Below, piece by piece: positions 6,571 through 24,648 of a stretch of 64,000 nt of DNA; within the stretch, counting starts at the first letter, position 1; each line of letters begins with the position of its first letter. A program made the position numbers and the translations under genes. The notes under the pieces are model-generated. The model was not told the DNA's origin, searched no databases, and worked only from the letters and a program-made list of their open reading frames with translations. Source of the stretch: Methanomassiliicoccales archaeon (lineage in GTDB: Archaea > Thermoplasmatota > Thermoplasmata > Methanomassiliicoccales > UBA472). Where the stretch lies: positions 1-64,000 of the forward strand of contig DASXVU010000033.1 in assembly GCA_036504055.1 (NCBI GenBank), given 5' to 3'.

Positions 6571-7904
6571 TGCGCCACCTCCGGGTTCTTGCGCTGGAAC
6601 GCCGATTCCCATTCCTCGCCCATCGAGATCAGCCCGGATTCATCCCAGTGAGGGGCGACGAACTGCATTCCTACTGGCATAGATGAAGTGTAACCGCAGG
6701 GTGCCGATAGGTGTGGCAGCCCGGTCAGGTTGGGCGGGATGGTAAGGAAATCGGCCGAATACATCTCCAGCGGCTTCATCTTGGCGATCTCTTCGAACCG
6801 GGGTGCCACAAACGGCATCGTCGGGGTCACTATCAGGTCGTGCTCATCGAACACGGTCCGATATTCCTTGGTAATGAGCTGACGGACCGCGAGCGATTTC
6901 AAGTAATACTTGTCCCTGAAACCCACCATGCGGCAAAAGGTCCCCAGCAGGATCCGGCGTTTCGCCTCCGGGCCGAAGCATTCCGAGCGAACGCCGGAGA
7001 AGAAATCGTTGAAATGCTGCGAAACGTCCTTTTCTGGCACCCCGAACCGCATGCCGCAGTACCGGGCCAGATTGGTCGACGCCTCGGTCGTGGCCAGGAT
7101 GTAGTAGGCGGGCATAGCGAACCTAAGCGATGGCATGCTCACCTCGTGGACTGAGATCCCGAGCTCCTGCTTCATCATTTCCAATGCGTGACGGAAGATC
7201 AATTCCACCTCCGGCGAGATGTTCGCCATCGCTTCCTTCGGCAAGGCCAGACGCCTGATCTTCTTTGAGGATATCTCCAGCCTCGGCTGGGTACAGGAGG
7301 TTGGATCCTTCGGGTCAGAACCGGAAATCACCGGGAGAAGCCTCCTGATGTCCGCGATCGAACGGGACAAAAGACCCACCTTGTCCAGCGAGTTACCGTA
7401 GTCGATAAGGCCATAACGAGAGACGCGACCGTAGGTCGGGGTCAATCCATACACCCCGCAGAAAGAGGCCGGGGCCGATATCGAGCCGCCGGTAGACACA
7501 CCGAGGGCTACATGACCCTCGATGAGCGCCGCAGCCGCGGCCGCACCCCCGCTGGAACCTCCGCATGCCCGTCCAGTATCGAACGGGTTCAACGGTATGT
7601 CGAAACCAGAGTTGGTGCTGAACGTGCCAAAACCGAACTCGTCCATGTTCGTCTTTCCCAGCAGCAGGCCTCCGGCCTCCCTCAGCTTGCGCACAGGCGT
7701 TGCATCGAATGGCGGACGGTATCCTTCAAGGATCTTCGAACCGGCACGGGCCTGGAACTCCTTCGTGCAAAGGTTATCCTTGGCCGAGAAAGTGAACGAC
7801 GAACTGTCGTCCGCTTCCAGCATCTCCCGGTCGATCATCTGGTTGAATATTCGATACTTGTCGTTGATGGCCCTCAGAAGAGGCTCGTCAATGATGCCGC
7901 TCAC
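6567..7904 (-). CDS. gatA: aspartyl/glutamyl-tRNA amidotransferase subunit A
   Basis: The amidase subunit of GatCAB, which releases ammonia from glutamine or asparagine for transamidation. The amidase-signature triad is visible as Lys42 (AKDN), the cis-Ser in GGSSGG (115-120) and Ser141 in TGGSIS. At 445 residues it is slightly shorter than the usual 470-490. The start is a GTG at 7904 that overlaps the gatC stop as GTGA. Archaea normally make Gln-tRNA(Gln) with GatDE, so this complex most likely serves Asn-tRNA(Asn). Confidence 0.96.
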   Translation of the reverse strand: MSGIIDEPLLRAINDKYRIFNQMIDREMLEADDSSSFTFSAKDNLCTKEFQARAGSKILEGYRPPFDATPVRKLREAGGLLLGKTNMDEFGFGTFSTNSGFDIPLNPFDTGRACGGSSGGAAAAAALIEGHVALGVSTGGSISAPASFCGVYGLTPTYGRVSRYGLIDYGNSLDKVGLLSRSIADIRRLLPVISGSDPKDPTSCTQPRLEISSKKIRRLALPKEAMANISPEVELIFRHALEMMKQELGISVHEVSMPSLRFAMPAYYILATTEASTNLARYCGMRFGVPEKDVSQHFNDFFSGVRSECFGPEAKRRILLGTFCRMVGFRDKYYLKSLAVRQLITKEYRTVFDEHDLIVTPTMPFVAPRFEEIAKMKPLEMYSADFLTIPPNLTGLPHLSAPCGYTSSMPVGMQFVAPHWDESGLISMGEEWESAFQRKNPEVAQ

Positions 7905-16651: not shown

Positions 16652-17335
16652 CTAGCGCCATTCCAGTAATGCCGGGCAGGTCTCCGCCGCCTCGCCCCTG
16701 ATCTCGAACGGGACCCACTGGCTGGAGGTCGGGTAACCTCTCATGTGGCGTATCCTCATGCGCCGGTTAAGGTCGTCATCGAACTTGAGCTCGATGACCC
16801 CGTCAGCAATGGCCATCAGGTGGTTGACGGTCTTGTCATCGTGCACACTGTCGTGGATCGAGAATATCATGGTGCCGTAAGTGCTCCTCACCTTGGAGCT
16901 CGATATCTGGAAGAACTTCAGGACCACGTTGGACTGGTTGTACAGGAACAGCGTCGAAAGGGTGTAGAGGAAGACCCTCACCGGTCGAGCGTGCTCGGAG
17001 CCTATGGAGTTCACGTTGAACATGATTCCTTCCAGATCCGAAACTGGCCGCACCTCGGACTTCGGATATGGCGACCTCTCCTCGTTGGAACCGAGCAGTG
17101 AGGAGTGATAGTCCACCACGAACAGCTTCTTGCCGAGCACCGCCTTGGTGTCTATGCCAAAATGGCCCATCATGGTGATTATGTCCGACGGCAGCACGTC
17201 GACGGTCACGAAGATCACTGAGACGTCCTGCGTGAGGTAGTCCTTTAGGAGGCTTATGTTGAACTCCAGCAATCCGATCCCTGGTGATCCGACCAACAGA
17301 ATGGAACTGTGGTCGGGAAGCGAGGCTTTGATCAT
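16652..17335 (-). CDS. KaiC-like RecA-superfamily protein with degenerate P-loop
   Basis: A 227-residue single RecA-fold protein. The Walker A position reads GSPGIGLLEF near residues 17-26, lacking the GK(T/S), so ATP hydrolysis is doubtful. KaiC-family landmarks remain: a GIDTKAVLGKKLFVVDYHS segment near 84-102 and the C-terminal RRMRIRHMRGYP strand near 197-208 that mirrors the KaiC RKMRGT motif. It starts 12 nt after the stop of the larger ATPase gene and is probably cotranscribed and part of the same complex. Confidence 0.7.
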   Translation of the reverse strand: MIKASLPDHSSILLVGSPGIGLLEFNISLLKDYLTQDVSVIFVTVDVLPSDIITMMGHFGIDTKAVLGKKLFVVDYHSSLLGSNEERSPYPKSEVRPVSDLEGIMFNVNSIGSEHARPVRVFLYTLSTLFLYNQSNVVLKFFQISSSKVRSTYGTMIFSIHDSVHDDKTVNHLMAIADGVIELKFDDDLNRRMRIRHMRGYPTSSQWVPFEIRGEAAETCPALLEWR

Positions 17336-17347
17336 TTCTTTTCCTCC

Positions 17348-18814
17348 TCACACTATGGGGGAGAGCGAGATGTTTCCTCCCCGTTCCCTTGCCTCCACCG
17401 CCAATGCGTTGCATTCCGTGAAGGGTTCCTCACCGAAGAGCACCACCGTGCCGCCTATCCTTTCCACCTTTATGTGCAGGTTTGCCAGATCGGCCAGCCG
17501 TTGCGTGGACTTTGTCGAGGGAGATGTTATTCCGACGAATATCCCGTTGTTACGCTTTATGGCAGCCAGGTGATCGGGGATCTGGTCCATCACCTTGTCC
17601 CCATATATCGACTCGAGCGAATCGAACCCCATCACGGACAGAATGGGTGACTCGGCGTTGCCGAGCGCATAGGATATGGATTTCCATTTGTAGTCTGAGG
17701 CGGGTGATGAGCCTTCCACCGGCATCACGTAGGGAGCACCGGCCAGTTCCATCTGTGCCGCCAGCTCGGGAATCCTGACATGCTTCTCGAACTGTTCCTT
17801 TGTCAGCGACCCGGTCATCTGGTTCTTTGCCGCCTCGGCCGATGTCTTGCGGGTGGGAAGCCAGAAGACCCCCCGGTTCAGCGAGACGAAGTTGGCCACC
17901 AATGACCTTTCCAATACCCCGCTTATCGCCGTTGGGATGCCGTGACCGAGCTCTATCAGCGTCATGGAACCCTTTTCCATGCCGCCCCTCATGAGCCGGT
18001 CCAGATCGGTGAGGCCGAAGGAGACCTTGCCGGTCGTGTCCTGGACCGGTTTCCATGGGTCCTGATGCCTGACCTCGTTCTCCCAAAGGTTGGCAAAGGT
18101 CTGTATACGAGAGGTTTTGAGAGTGAAAAGGTACTTTGGCTGGGCTATCTCGACCCCCCTCAATTTGAGGATGTCGATCTCCCTTATGCGACGCAACTGG
18201 TGATCTGCCAGTCCCAGGATGAGGACCCCGTCCCCCAGATAGTCTAGCTTGGTCTCATTGTTCTCAAGCACAAAGAGAACGTTGGAACCGTAACCCTCGA
18301 CCAGGTCCTTTTGTATGGCAGTGAGGAGGGAGGCGCAGCTCATGCTGTACCGTTCCGCCATGGCATCGATGGAATCGATTACGATGAGCGAACGGGCCGG
18401 GAACGTACCCTCGACCACGTCATAGACATGCTCCAGGTCGCCCAGGTCCTTACCGATCATGACCGACATCTCTTTCTTGGCGGTGCCGATGCTTTGCATC
18501 CCCAGGCCCTTCAGCTTGCTGAGGCCAGTCCGATGTTTGCCTACCACTTCCTCCTTCTTTTGTTCGGCCGCAACGGAGGCGGGCATCAGCTTTTCCGTGA
18601 GCCAGGGGAACTGAGTAATCAACGAGTGGTCCGACACCCGCATGGAAAAGTAGAAACTGTTCTCGATCTGGGCCAGATCCTCGATCGTCTGCAAGGCGAA
18701 GGTGGTCTTACCAGTACCTGCATTACCGCGTAGGATGAGGGAATGTCCGCCGGGATTCATGAAGAACTTGCATATCTCGGTCGGTATCCTGCGGCTTTCT
18801 TCTGAACGGATCAT
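17348..18814 (-). CDS. GvpD/KaiC-like ATPase with two RecA-type domains
   Basis: A 488-residue P-loop ATPase resembling archaeal GvpD and KaiC-like regulators. The N-terminal domain has an intact Walker A GNAGTGKT (30-37) and Walker B LIVIDSIDAM near residue 160. The second half repeats the layout (GLTDLDRLMRGGMEKGSMTLIE near 270-291), but its P-loop is degenerate (ELGHGIPTAI). No gas-vesicle genes are nearby, so a gas-vesicle role is not supported; a signalling or regulatory ATPase is more likely. Confidence 0.75.
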   Translation of the reverse strand: MIRSEESRRIPTEICKFFMNPGGHSLILRGNAGTGKTTFALQTIEDLAQIENSFYFSMRVSDHSLITQFPWLTEKLMPASVAAEQKKEEVVGKHRTGLSKLKGLGMQSIGTAKKEMSVMIGKDLGDLEHVYDVVEGTFPARSLIVIDSIDAMAERYSMSCASLLTAIQKDLVEGYGSNVLFVLENNETKLDYLGDGVLILGLADHQLRRIREIDILKLRGVEIAQPKYLFTLKTSRIQTFANLWENEVRHQDPWKPVQDTTGKVSFGLTDLDRLMRGGMEKGSMTLIELGHGIPTAISGVLERSLVANFVSLNRGVFWLPTRKTSAEAAKNQMTGSLTKEQFEKHVRIPELAAQMELAGAPYVMPVEGSSPASDYKWKSISYALGNAESPILSVMGFDSLESIYGDKVMDQIPDHLAAIKRNNGIFVGITSPSTKSTQRLADLANLHIKVERIGGTVVLFGEEPFTECNALAVEARERGGNISLSPIV

Positions 18815-21966: not shown

Positions 21967-22947
21967 TCAGCCCAGTCTTTCGGGGCAGTTCTCCCTGCGG
22001 GAACACCCAACGCACTTTCCGACCCGGTGGTGGTTGCGGTGCACCTCACCGCTCTTCATCAGCCCCCGCATCTCCGCCAATTTGCCCAGCAGAAGGCTTT
22101 CCAGTTCGTCGTCGAACTCGATCTCGTGCTCGACGTCCCCGTACTTCAGGATGCCGCGGGACACCCGCTTACCGTTCTCGTCGCTTAGCAGCAGGCAATA
22201 GGCCCCGATCTGAAGTATGTGCGAGAATAGCGGGCCTCGAGGCTGTCGGCCGGTCTTCAGGTCGACCGGGATCAGCTCGTTGTCCACCATCAGTATGTAG
22301 TCTGGACGGCCGGTGAGCTTGTACTTTTCCGAGATCAAGAGCCTCTGATCGTCCGTACCGACGTAAAGCACCTTGCCGTCCACGTTGACCTTGGCGCGCT
22401 TCTTCTTGGCCAGGCTCTCTGCCATCAGAGAATAGTACAGGGCTGAGCTGGCCCCCATGAGCCATATCAGGGCAAGCACCTCGAATACCGAGGCCATCTC
22501 CTGATTGAACTGAAGAAGGGTAACGGCGTTCAGGGCCACCACCATTGCGACTATGCCAGCGACCGCGATCTGCCTTTCCCTGCGGATAACCCCAGCGGCT
22601 TTGGCCGAAACACTGTGTATGAGTATCAGAACGGCAGCGACCCAGAAGACCGAAAGGAGGGTCAGCAGCCAATGCCAGCCGGTAAGGGTCCGGGACTGCG
22701 TCAGCAGAAACCCGACGATGGCCATTAGGGTTGATACCGCCGAGAACCACAGCACCGCCCGCTCCCAGGAACCGGCCTTTTTCTCGCTGACCATGATGGT
22801 CATCAGGTCATCTGAGATGTTTTCGTGGTTCCTTGTGCCCTGTTTCAGGCTTTCCGAGCTTGCCTGGCCTGACCTGCCCTGCCACCAGCTGAGGGGGCAA
22901 TAGCCGAAGCGCTCCAGGTCACTAGCAGAAATGAACTCGGGGTCCAC
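21967..22947 (-). CDS. Cas4-like PD-(D/E)XK nuclease with four inserted transmembrane helices
   Basis: A 326-residue protein whose ends form one Cas4/RecB-like nuclease domain. The N-terminus has SASDLERFGYCP (Cys17) and a G-x3-H motif (His41). The core has GRPDYI (Asp216), PVDLKTG (Asp229, Lys231) and QIGAY (Gln246, Tyr250). Three C-terminal cysteines (312, 315, 321) complete a probable [4Fe-4S] site with Cys17. Residues about 64-175 hold four hydrophobic helices, which would anchor the nuclease in the membrane. The start is GTG at 22947. No CRISPR array or other cas gene is present. Role unknown. Confidence 0.82.
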   Translation of the reverse strand: MDPEFISASDLERFGYCPLSWWQGRSGQASSESLKQGTRNHENISDDLMTIMVSEKKAGSWERAVLWFSAVSTLMAIVGFLLTQSRTLTGWHWLLTLLSVFWVAAVLILIHSVSAKAAGVIRRERQIAVAGIVAMVVALNAVTLLQFNQEMASVFEVLALIWLMGASSALYYSLMAESLAKKKRAKVNVDGKVLYVGTDDQRLLISEKYKLTGRPDYILMVDNELIPVDLKTGRQPRGPLFSHILQIGAYCLLLSDENGKRVSRGILKYGDVEHEIEFDDELESLLLGKLAEMRGLMKSGEVHRNHHRVGKCVGCSRRENCPERLG

Positions 22948-22990: not shown

Positions 22991-23749
22991 TTAAGGCATC
23001 TTGCAAATCAGGTTGGTGATGGAAGCGTCAGAGATGTAGATGCCCTCGGGCGGGGTTATCTCGTCCACGAACCCGAACCAATAGATGACCACTCCCTGTC
23101 CGAAAAGTTCCAGGTACGGTTCCAGTTGCTTCTTCATGTTCTTGTTGACTTCCACCCGGTCACCGAAGGTCGCCTTGGACTCGATCCATTTGACCTCCCA
23201 TCCGTTGACCCTGATGGGTTTGTCGAGAAGGCAGTCAGGGGTCTTCGGGTATTCCCCCCGCAGGTCCTTCTCGGTCCGGTAAGAGATATTCTGGCCGTCC
23301 AACCAGCACTGCAACTTCTCTTCGCCCCAGGTCCCCCGCTTGTATTGCTTCTCCGTGGCCCAAGGAGAATAGACGAGGTCTTCCTCGGTGATCTCTTTGA
23401 TCTGCTGTTTGAGGGACTCGTCAGAGATTGTGTCCACGCTGCGCACCATGTTCCAGAACTGTTTCTTGGACCGGCCGCTCACCTGATAGATCATCAGACC
23501 GGTCAAGATCGGAGGGAAGTTCCATTTCCTTGCAACCTCCAGCAAGGTCAATCCATGGTTCCAGTCGTTGACCAACTTTTGCGCGTTCCTCTGGACCTTG
23601 TAGAAGCTTTTAGTGGTCTCTCGGACCGTCCTTTGGGTAAAAATGACATCCAAGAGCTCGAGGTCAAGACCGAGTTCCTGGGAGAGCTTGGTGATGTCTG
23701 CCGGCTCATTCAGTCGGTCATAGATCACCTTGAAATCGTTGTGCTTCAT
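22991..23749 (-). CDS. CDIN1 (C15orf41)-family predicted nuclease, TPD domain
   Basis: A 252-residue protein matching the archaeal relatives of human CDIN1, the partner of codanin-1. Residues 1-110 look helical and HTH-like (LTLLEVARKWNFPPILTGLMIYQ). The C-terminal half is a PD-(D/E)XK-type fold with the family motif TPD (170-172) and WIESKA (Glu190, Lys192), plus an upstream GEEKL acid. Family function is unproven; a DNA or RNA nuclease role in chromatin or replication is proposed. It lies 43 nt upstream of the Cas4-like gene on the same strand. Confidence 0.82.
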   Translation of the reverse strand: MKHNDFKVIYDRLNEPADITKLSQELGLDLELLDVIFTQRTVRETTKSFYKVQRNAQKLVNDWNHGLTLLEVARKWNFPPILTGLMIYQVSGRSKKQFWNMVRSVDTISDESLKQQIKEITEEDLVYSPWATEKQYKRGTWGEEKLQCWLDGQNISYRTEKDLRGEYPKTPDCLLDKPIRVNGWEVKWIESKATFGDRVEVNKNMKKQLEPYLELFGQGVVIYWFGFVDEITPPEGIYISDASITNLICKMP

Positions 23750-23979: not shown

Positions 23980-24648
23980 ATGGCAGTATTACCGTACATG
24001 GCGAACCCGGTCGGCCCTCCGTGGCTTCCCGCAAGCGTCGCCGAGGCAAGAAAGCTAGCTTACTGGGCCCAAATAATCGCTGGAGTCCTGGGCGTCCTGT
24101 TGATCATTGCAGGCATCGTCAACCTGGTGGTATGGGATAGAGGCTTAGGGATAATTTACCTCATCGACGCGATCATCGCCTTGGCGTTCGCCGTCCTGCT
24201 GAAGGGAATGCTGTTCGACATCATAGACCAGGGCAAGTTCAAGGAGGCGAGCGACCGCATGCTGATCTTGGGGATCATCGGACTGTTCGCCTCGGTGATC
24301 CCGGGCATACTGCTCATTCTAGGATATGTCCGGATGCAGGAGGTATTCCAGCCACAGTACCAGCAATACCAACCGCAGAATGCCACCGTCGCCCCGCCCC
24401 AACAGGTACCGCAGCAACAGGCACCAGGCCAATACCAACAGGCCTATCAGCAGCCTGCCCCGCAGCCGGCACCGCAGCAATATGACCAGATGCAGACCCT
24501 CAGGGAAGGGATAAAGCAGGACCAGGCAGCGGCAGAGCAGAAGAAGAAGGATCAAAAGACCGAGATGATCAAGTGCAGCAAGTGCGGCGTTCAATACCCG
24601 TCCTTCATGCACGCGTGCCCTAACTGCAACGAGCCGAAGTCGAAGTAA
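23980..24648 (+). CDS. membrane protein with Gln/Pro-rich linker and C-terminal zinc ribbon
   Basis: A 222-residue protein. Three hydrophobic helices are visible at about 28-50, 57-76 and 96-116. A low-complexity Gln/Pro/Tyr linker (about 122-170) follows, then a charged helix and a zinc ribbon (CSKCGVQYPSF...CPNCNE, near 203-220). GGGAG lies about 10 nt before the ATG. This layout is common among poorly characterised archaeal membrane proteins; the cytoplasmic ribbon may bind a partner. No specific function can be assigned. Confidence 0.72.
   Translation: MAVLPYMANPVGPPWLPASVAEARKLAYWAQIIAGVLGVLLIIAGIVNLVVWDRGLGIIYLIDAIIALAFAVLLKGMLFDIIDQGKFKEASDRMLILGIIGLFASVIPGILLILGYVRMQEVFQPQYQQYQPQNATVAPPQQVPQQQAPGQYQQAYQQPAPQPAPQQYDQMQTLREGIKQDQAAAEQKKKDQKTEMIKCSKCGVQYPSFMHACPNCNEPKSK

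Follow-up and report, generated by a model that had tools for sequence, protein, structure and literature searches.

To our knowledge, Cas4 proteins have been described as soluble enzymes. A gene at 21967..22947 in the window, the whole 64,000-nucleotide stretch of Methanomassiliicoccales DNA analyzed here, raises the question of what a nuclease of this family does with a bundle of hydrophobic helices in its core. The initial annotation had read the product as a membrane-tethered Fe-S nuclease on the Cas4/RecB plan, one that could act on incoming DNA in uptake or defense, or else at the septum.

Cas4 identity of the window protein

The open reading frame lies on the minus strand, from a GTG start at 22947 to a stop codon ending at 21967, and encodes 326 amino acids; across 21967-22947, the plus strand is blocked by stops. 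Three nuclease models match within residues 176 to 322: PDDEXK_1 (Pfam; E 1.2e-11), Cas_Cas4 (Pfam; E 1.4e-6, 29 bits against a cut-off of 22.7), and TIGR00372 cas4 (NCBIfam; E 8e-20, 71.4 bits against a cut-off of 65). Together with relatives in 41 of 61 related genomes, these matches identify a membrane Cas4-family nuclease gene. The TIGR00372 alignment begins at profile position 47, which places the insert at about positions 45 to 57 of an ordinary Cas4. Where the gene is split in two, the pieces cover profile positions 3 to 44 (N-terminal piece) and 57 to 179 (C-terminal piece).

Residue conservation and the match of the split-gene N-piece to TIGR00372 positions 3 to 44 define an N-terminal nuclease segment (residues 1 to 62; 22762..22947, minus strand) that carries the cluster ligand Cys17 and His41 of motif I. 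The catalytic core (residues 190 to 260; 22168..22380, minus strand), delimited by conservation and pLDDT, contains GRPD216, D229-x-K231, and Q246-x3-Y250. Conserved cysteines mark a C-terminal Fe-S segment (residues 303 to 321; 21985..22041, minus strand) with H303, H306, C312, C315, and C321. Among 87 diverse relatives, C17, D216, D/E229, K231, and Y250 are kept in 87/87, H41, Q246, C312, and C315 in 86/87, and C321 in 85/87, the missing residues being alignment gaps. The set of motif-I His, D, (D/E)xK, and QxxxY is therefore near-invariant (86 to 87 of the 87 sequences), as are the one N-terminal and three C-terminal cysteines for a 4Fe-4S cluster, which argues that the gene is under selection as a nuclease. 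The Fe-S nuclease plan proposed in the initial annotation is thus borne out by profiles and conservation, and every residue it named (Cys17, His41, Asp216, Asp229, Lys231, Gln246/Tyr250, and the C-terminal cysteines) lies where it had been placed.

Structure prediction with AlphaFold2 (alignment of 71 sequences) pointed in the same direction, with a mean pLDDT of 82 and a pTM of 0.80; the nuclease core is mostly above 90 and the membrane helices reach only about 55 to 78. When the model was compared with the PDB using Foldseek, the nearest structures were 8d3q (Cas4 in a type I-C complex; E 2.8e-5), SSO0001, the Cas4/Cas1 fusion 7mi5, and MGME1 (E about 5e-4), and the Argonaute-associated Cas4 family protein ACE1 (9iac, 9iab) was found at E of about 2.5e-3. 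The window gene very likely encodes a Cas4 nuclease that crosses the membrane several times, RecB-like with a PD-(D/E)XK core and a predicted 4Fe-4S cluster. We infer that it folds as an active, cluster-bearing enzyme. Nuclease activity is established for SSO0001, SSO1391, Pcal_0546, and TON_0321, which are 5'-3' exonucleases and in some cases structure-specific endonucleases (PMC12538437). By analogy with the studied Cas4 proteins, the membrane form would act on 5' ends of single-stranded DNA and on branched DNA.

The nuclease fold is common to MGME1, Dna2, and AddB-type RecB nucleases, which are without such a membrane insert. Helicase or helicase-like domains are present in Dna2 and AddB but not in the membrane Cas4. 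ACE1 is likewise a non-CRISPR Cas4-family protein, but it is Argonaute-associated, whereas no Argonaute neighbor was seen at the membrane Cas4.

The membrane insert and the two-gene form

Hydrophobic segments lie at residues 64-82, 95-113, 127-145, and 152-170, all between H41 and D216, in agreement with the four helices initially described between motif I and the catalytic acids. Four segments were scored in 102 of 104 scorable four-helix sequences, the other two being odd. The helices were assigned by hydropathy, and their topology by hydropathy and charge. The mean number of K+R residues per sequence is 4.06 in the inner loop 2-3 and 3.8 to 4.9 in the flanks, against 0.79 in loop 1-2 and 0.32 in loop 3-4, the outer loops. 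This distribution indicates that both nuclease halves are cytosolic, a layout that requires an even number of helices. As predicted from sequence, an integral membrane protein with an even helix number and a positive-inside orientation is well supported.

A Foldseek search of the PDB gave no convincing membrane-protein match for the insert, and a match to MFS_1 was weak (E 3.4e-4, below cut-off). The insert is accounted for by an internal repeat. Hairpin A (residues 56 to 120, with TM1 at 64-82 and TM2 at 95-113; 22588..22782, minus strand) is homologous to hairpin B (residues 121 to 185, with TM3 at 127-145 and TM4 at 152-170; 22393..22587, minus strand), with an hhalign probability of 98.9 and a score of 76 over 58 columns; by comparison, scores against four other membrane families did not exceed 31.6, and the reversed and window-shuffled controls reached 13 and 30.4, respectively. 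Hairpin A is delimited by hydropathy and this homology, and hairpin B by hydropathy, the repeat test, and AlphaFold2, which places its helices at 121-142 and 149-187.

The insert is modular, as tandem copies of one hairpin of about 60 residues give two, four, or eight helices. Most families, including that of the window, have two hairpins (four helices). A single hairpin (two helices) occupies the insert site in families f35, f41, f42, f44, f49, f53, f58, and f63, and eight helices are found in f7, f20, f40, f55, f56, and f60; the repeat profile matches all four hairpins in f7, f20, f55, and f60, and partly or not at all in f40 and f56. The helix number is even in all but two fused loci, L188 and L224, which score three by hydropathy, the odd scores consisting of one weak extra segment and one missed segment.

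Families f45, f22 (possibly the Thermoplasmatales), and f14 encode the nuclease in two adjacent same-strand genes with one helix each, cut exactly at the insert; one f30 genome has a second copy of this kind. The N-piece (about 80 to 120 amino acids) comprises the Cys, the His, and one helix, and the C-piece (about 130 to 200 amino acids) comprises one helix, the D, ExK, and QxxxY motifs, and three Cys; in 27 split loci, the N-piece stop lies within about 30 nucleotides of the helix start in the C-piece. Each half retains its own, complementary ligands, but the active site and the cluster site are both incomplete in either half alone; judging from their sequences, the halves therefore most likely assemble together in the membrane. 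The Cas4 fold thus tolerates a cut at a single site, with the membrane, and probably also a shared Fe-S cluster, keeping the halves together. The initial reading as a membrane Fe-S nuclease outside CRISPR, and not an assembly fusion, holds, but it had missed both the variable, repeat-built insert and this natural splitting. Genome G145 carries a fused four-helix copy as well as a split copy (L218, L237), and the two forms can therefore coexist as paralogues.

A tblastn search of plasmids gave matches to the C-terminal half only. On plasmids of Singulisphaera, Paludisphaera, and Bacillus subtilis, a gene of 81 to 91 amino acids that encodes the Cys/His segment and a single helix lies upstream of this half, itself a piece of 162 to 169 amino acids with one helix and the catalytic core. 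Searched against the archaeal split profiles, the bacterial N-pieces gave E values of 4.9e-18, 6e-11, and 1.6e-8, and the C-pieces 6.7e-35, 6e-30, and 3.3e-28, all scaled to 1000 sequences. The f22 C-piece, used as the query, gave no matches other than these genes and a third plasmid from a planctomycete. The pairs resemble the archaeal split form in having a Cys/His piece and a catalytic piece with one helix each. Unlike the window gene, they are plasmid-borne, unfused, and annotated as unrelated single genes, the C-pieces as 'Dna2/Cas4 domain-containing' or 'PD-(D/E)XK nuclease family'. The two-gene form explains such misleading annotations, in which N-pieces appear as 'hypothetical' and C-pieces as 'Cas4'. 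The plasmid pairs are located at L321:2229-3001, L322:2100-2881, and L323:1676-2414 (Planctomycetota and Bacillus subtilis), with their N-pieces annotated as hypothetical; in the B. subtilis pair, L323:1676-1921 is the N-piece and L323:1926-2414 the C-piece. In two cases, a MobF relaxase and a DNA methylase lie near the pair. Phages and viral contigs yielded no match to the membrane Cas4, and a virus or phage origin was rejected on this ground.

Distribution, descent, and relation to CRISPR

With the full protein as the query, the gene was recovered from 41 of 61 related genomes, full length in nearly every case, the best matches having 41 to 58% identity. A scan of named genomes gave 80 loci, nearly all from Methanomassiliicoccales, Thermoplasmata/Thermoplasmatota, or Euryarchaeota. 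In profile searches, 155 of 200 genomes from the class and 189 of 293 drawn from the phylum Thermoplasmatota gave a match, usually at one locus per genome; these counts take in incomplete assemblies. The unusual layout, and nothing beyond it, might hint at an artefact, whether an assembly fusion, a chance hydrophobic stretch, or a dead nuclease turned membrane scaffold. However, the recurrence of the gene in the related genomes rules out a chance layout and, with the 80 named contigs, also the assembly error that had been named as what would refute the initial reading. As the catalytic residues are nearly invariant, too, we assign the artefact a negligible probability.

In a tree of the nuclease columns with CAS-Cas4 as the outgroup, the membrane family forms one clade (support 100/99), with all 7 CAS-Cas4 rows on one side of that branch. 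The split forms of f45 and f22 branch first, and all others form a 99/99 clade with the two-helix families at its base. With the reservations that the outgroup branch is long and the bootstrap is not fully settled, this topology suggests an order from a split form to a fused form with one hairpin and then to duplicated hairpins. Counter to a simple split-first order, the split form of f14 is nested among the fused sequences, where its branch is long. The archaeal copies group largely by taxon, and their inheritance is mainly vertical.

Since the CRISPR Cas4 equivalog model TIGR00372 is matched above its cut-off, the protein could be regarded as a membrane-bound Cas4 of CRISPR adaptation. Yet no cas1 match was found beside the membrane form in 48 genomes, and 29 of these 48 have no Cas1 match. 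In several Cas1-bearing genomes, a different Cas4 adjoins or is fused to Cas1. Together with the separate 100/99 clade, these observations led us to reject a role in adaptation, whose probability we consider very small. The initial statement that no CRISPR lies nearby holds for the window, whose genome also has no second Cas4, and hydropathy, positive-inside charges, and the separate clade all agree with a membrane-tethered protein outside CRISPR adaptation. CAS-Cas4 proteins (8d3q, 7mi5) share the PD-(D/E)XK core, motif-I His, 1+3 Cys arrangement, and QxxxY motif with the membrane Cas4. In contrast, they have no membrane helices and are linked to cas1/cas2, whereas the membrane form has the helix insert and no cas neighbors.

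On another contig, the genome of the window contains a weak Cas1-like gene (G000:C31:35971-36588, 317-aa frame, E 8e-11). Similar weak genes occur in G006, G131, and G158; these are possibly solo or casposon-type Cas1.

By its position outside CRISPR-cas loci and its mainly vertical descent, the membrane Cas4 qualifies as a solo-Cas4, like SSO0001, SSO1391, and Pcal_0546, which share both traits (PMC5704561). It differs from the studied solo-Cas4 proteins in that these were handled as soluble. The main text of the 2017 survey (Hudaiberdiev et al., PMC5704561) contains no mention of a membrane insert, a hairpin repeat, or a split gene, and no report of a membrane or split Cas4 was found in the open-access literature. 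Solo-Cas4 function becomes testable through the split form, which occurs in an SMC-ScpA operon and on genetically tractable Bacillus plasmids.

Gene neighborhoods and candidate roles

The gene directly upstream of the nuclease, in 81 loci, encodes a TPD protein in 27 and an LTD-PLD-PKD protein in 20. In the window, the upstream, co-directional gene is a TPD nuclease-like gene (PF14811, E 6.6e-44; 22991..23749, minus strand), separated from the membrane Cas4 gene by 43 nt, and the two probably form one transcription unit. The TPD genes upstream in the 27 loci lie on the same strand as the nuclease, at a median distance of about 49 nt, and TPD genes adjoin it in at least seven families (f1, f2 in one genome, f5, f6, f8, f13, and f24). 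TPD is the domain of human C15ORF41/CDIN1 and resembles archaeal Holliday junction resolvases, without shown activity (PMC7261414).

A second kind of neighborhood is found in f22, where the gene order SMC - ScpA - cas4N - cas4C - Trp/TyrRS is present in 12/12 examined genomes with the split pair, the genes mostly overlapping or lying only a few nucleotides apart (L241, L242, L258-L267). In L241, for example, the N-piece is at 6760-7101 and the C-piece at 7102-7617. The SMC matches TIGR02169 (E 1.5e-276), and ScpA was identified by a profile comparison with 6ivh (E 1.8e-5) and by Pfam. Most single-sequence Pfam searches miss the f22 ScpA, which has diverged too far.

The SMC-ScpA operon, the TPD partner, and vertical descent favor chromosome maintenance at the membrane as the role, a reading to which we give a little less than an even chance. 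Several points count against it. The SMC-ScpA operon with the nuclease occurs in f22 only, not in the lineage of the window, and three f22 genera include genomes that have SMC-ScpA but lack the nuclease pair beside it. In f2, the nuclease is absent from 15/15 searched genomes, with no hidden divergent copy found by the split profile, which shows that it is dispensable; a joint loss of nuclease and TPD was rejected, as f2 keeps TPD. Elsewhere, a secreted LTD-PLD nuclease lies upstream, and the bacterial copies are on plasmids. Taken as a whole, a membrane-tethered Cas4 nuclease at the inner membrane face that serves chromosome maintenance is nevertheless the best explanation, and we see it as evenly poised between right and wrong.

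Under this explanation, segment 1 would supply the cluster Cys and the motif-I His, and segment 2 the acids, the Lys, and three Cys. Both nuclease segments would face the cytosol, with an even number of hairpin-derived helices linking them, or, in some lineages, would be provided as two separate one-helix subunits. The most likely task of the enzyme would then be to trim or cut the chromosomal DNA of its own cell, at ends, flaps, or branched intermediates, where the chromosome meets the membrane, in the service of segregation, recombination, or repair, with SMC-ScpA as the partner in one lineage and the Holliday-resolvase-like TPD nuclease in others. We propose only tentatively that these proteins make up a hitherto unrecognized nuclease family of archaea and bacteria, in which the Cas4 site and cluster are built from two membrane-anchored halves, separate or linked by 2, 4, or 8 helices, that work with SMC-kleisin or TPD on chromosomal DNA at the membrane. 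The data suggest membrane-sited cutting or trimming of DNA in some cells. If the chromosomal role is true, archaea have a membrane-sited DNA-processing enzyme, of which we know no described counterpart.

The same location at the inner membrane face would also suit a nuclease that degrades or trims entering DNA, be it a virus genome, a conjugating plasmid, or taken-up DNA. PADLOC Cas4 models match the protein, as they do any Cas4, and a DNA-entry role is kept alive by the plasmid-borne split copies, two of which have a MobF relaxase and a DNA methylase nearby, and by a Cas4-like nuclease that lowers RSF1010 plasmid transfer or maintenance in Synechococcus elongatus (PMC10653904). However, the archaeal copies are widely conserved, mostly single-locus, and grouped largely by taxon, unlike defense genes. 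Their neighbors are housekeeping genes, SMC-ScpA, or TPD, and no defense genes were seen adjoining the archaeal loci. In addition, a search of 200 genomes of the class turned up no ComEC homologue, which leaves no ComEC-dependent partner there and makes the uptake role raised initially, in its classical ComEC-type form, unlikely. We consider action on entering DNA doubtful overall.

The LTD-PLD-PKD neighbor raises a further alternative, in which the membrane nuclease and a secreted LTD-PLD nuclease convert external DNA to nucleotides. This gene lies directly upstream in 20 of the 81 loci, and an LTD gene adjoins the nuclease in eight families (f18, f19, f20, f23, f25, f27, f28, and f31). The association is also seen where LTD matches in the genome number just one or two (G100, G113, and G114). 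LTD proteins reportedly include extracellular nucleases such as Shewanella ExeM. Nevertheless, the LTD neighbor is missing in the lineage of the window and in the SMC-linked lineage, some of the genomes hold many LTD genes (up to 53 matches), the positive charges place the nuclease on the cytosolic side, and ComEC is missing from the same 200 genomes. DNA scavenging is accordingly judged improbable, and chromosome maintenance remains the preferred role.

One example of the LTD neighbor (L133:5231-7978, plus strand) is a large, secreted-looking protein with two lamin-tail, two PLD-like, and one PKD domain. The 5.2-Mb archaeal genome G084 (locus L245) has 53 lamin-tail-domain matches, many in frames of more than 1500 amino acids.

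Other conserved neighbors were also recorded. A 122-aa membrane protein with hydrophobic segments followed by a likely coiled coil (L114:5795-6163, minus strand) and a secreted-looking protein (L114:6130-6648, minus strand), both lacking a Pfam match, are encoded convergently to the nuclease gene, with a spacing of about 0 nt, in more than 30 loci. As conserved convergent neighbors in the opposite orientation, glmS and the 122-aa protein were given no weight. In the window, 23980-24648 (plus strand) encodes a neighbor conserved in 18 loci, a membrane protein with a glutamine-rich linker and C-terminal zinc-ribbon-like cysteines that matched no confident family. At 16652-18814 (minus strand), the window encodes adjacent proteins of 488 and 227 amino acids, the larger of which has a Walker A-like motif and is apparently RecA/KaiC-like; the pair is conserved beside glmU/glmS in related genomes, and PADLOC gave one weak match. 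Finally, upstream of the nuclease gene, L105:1982-2737 (plus strand) encodes an aconitase X swivel domain fused to a NUDIX domain and belongs to an operon-like series that also includes AcnX and an IF-2B family protein.
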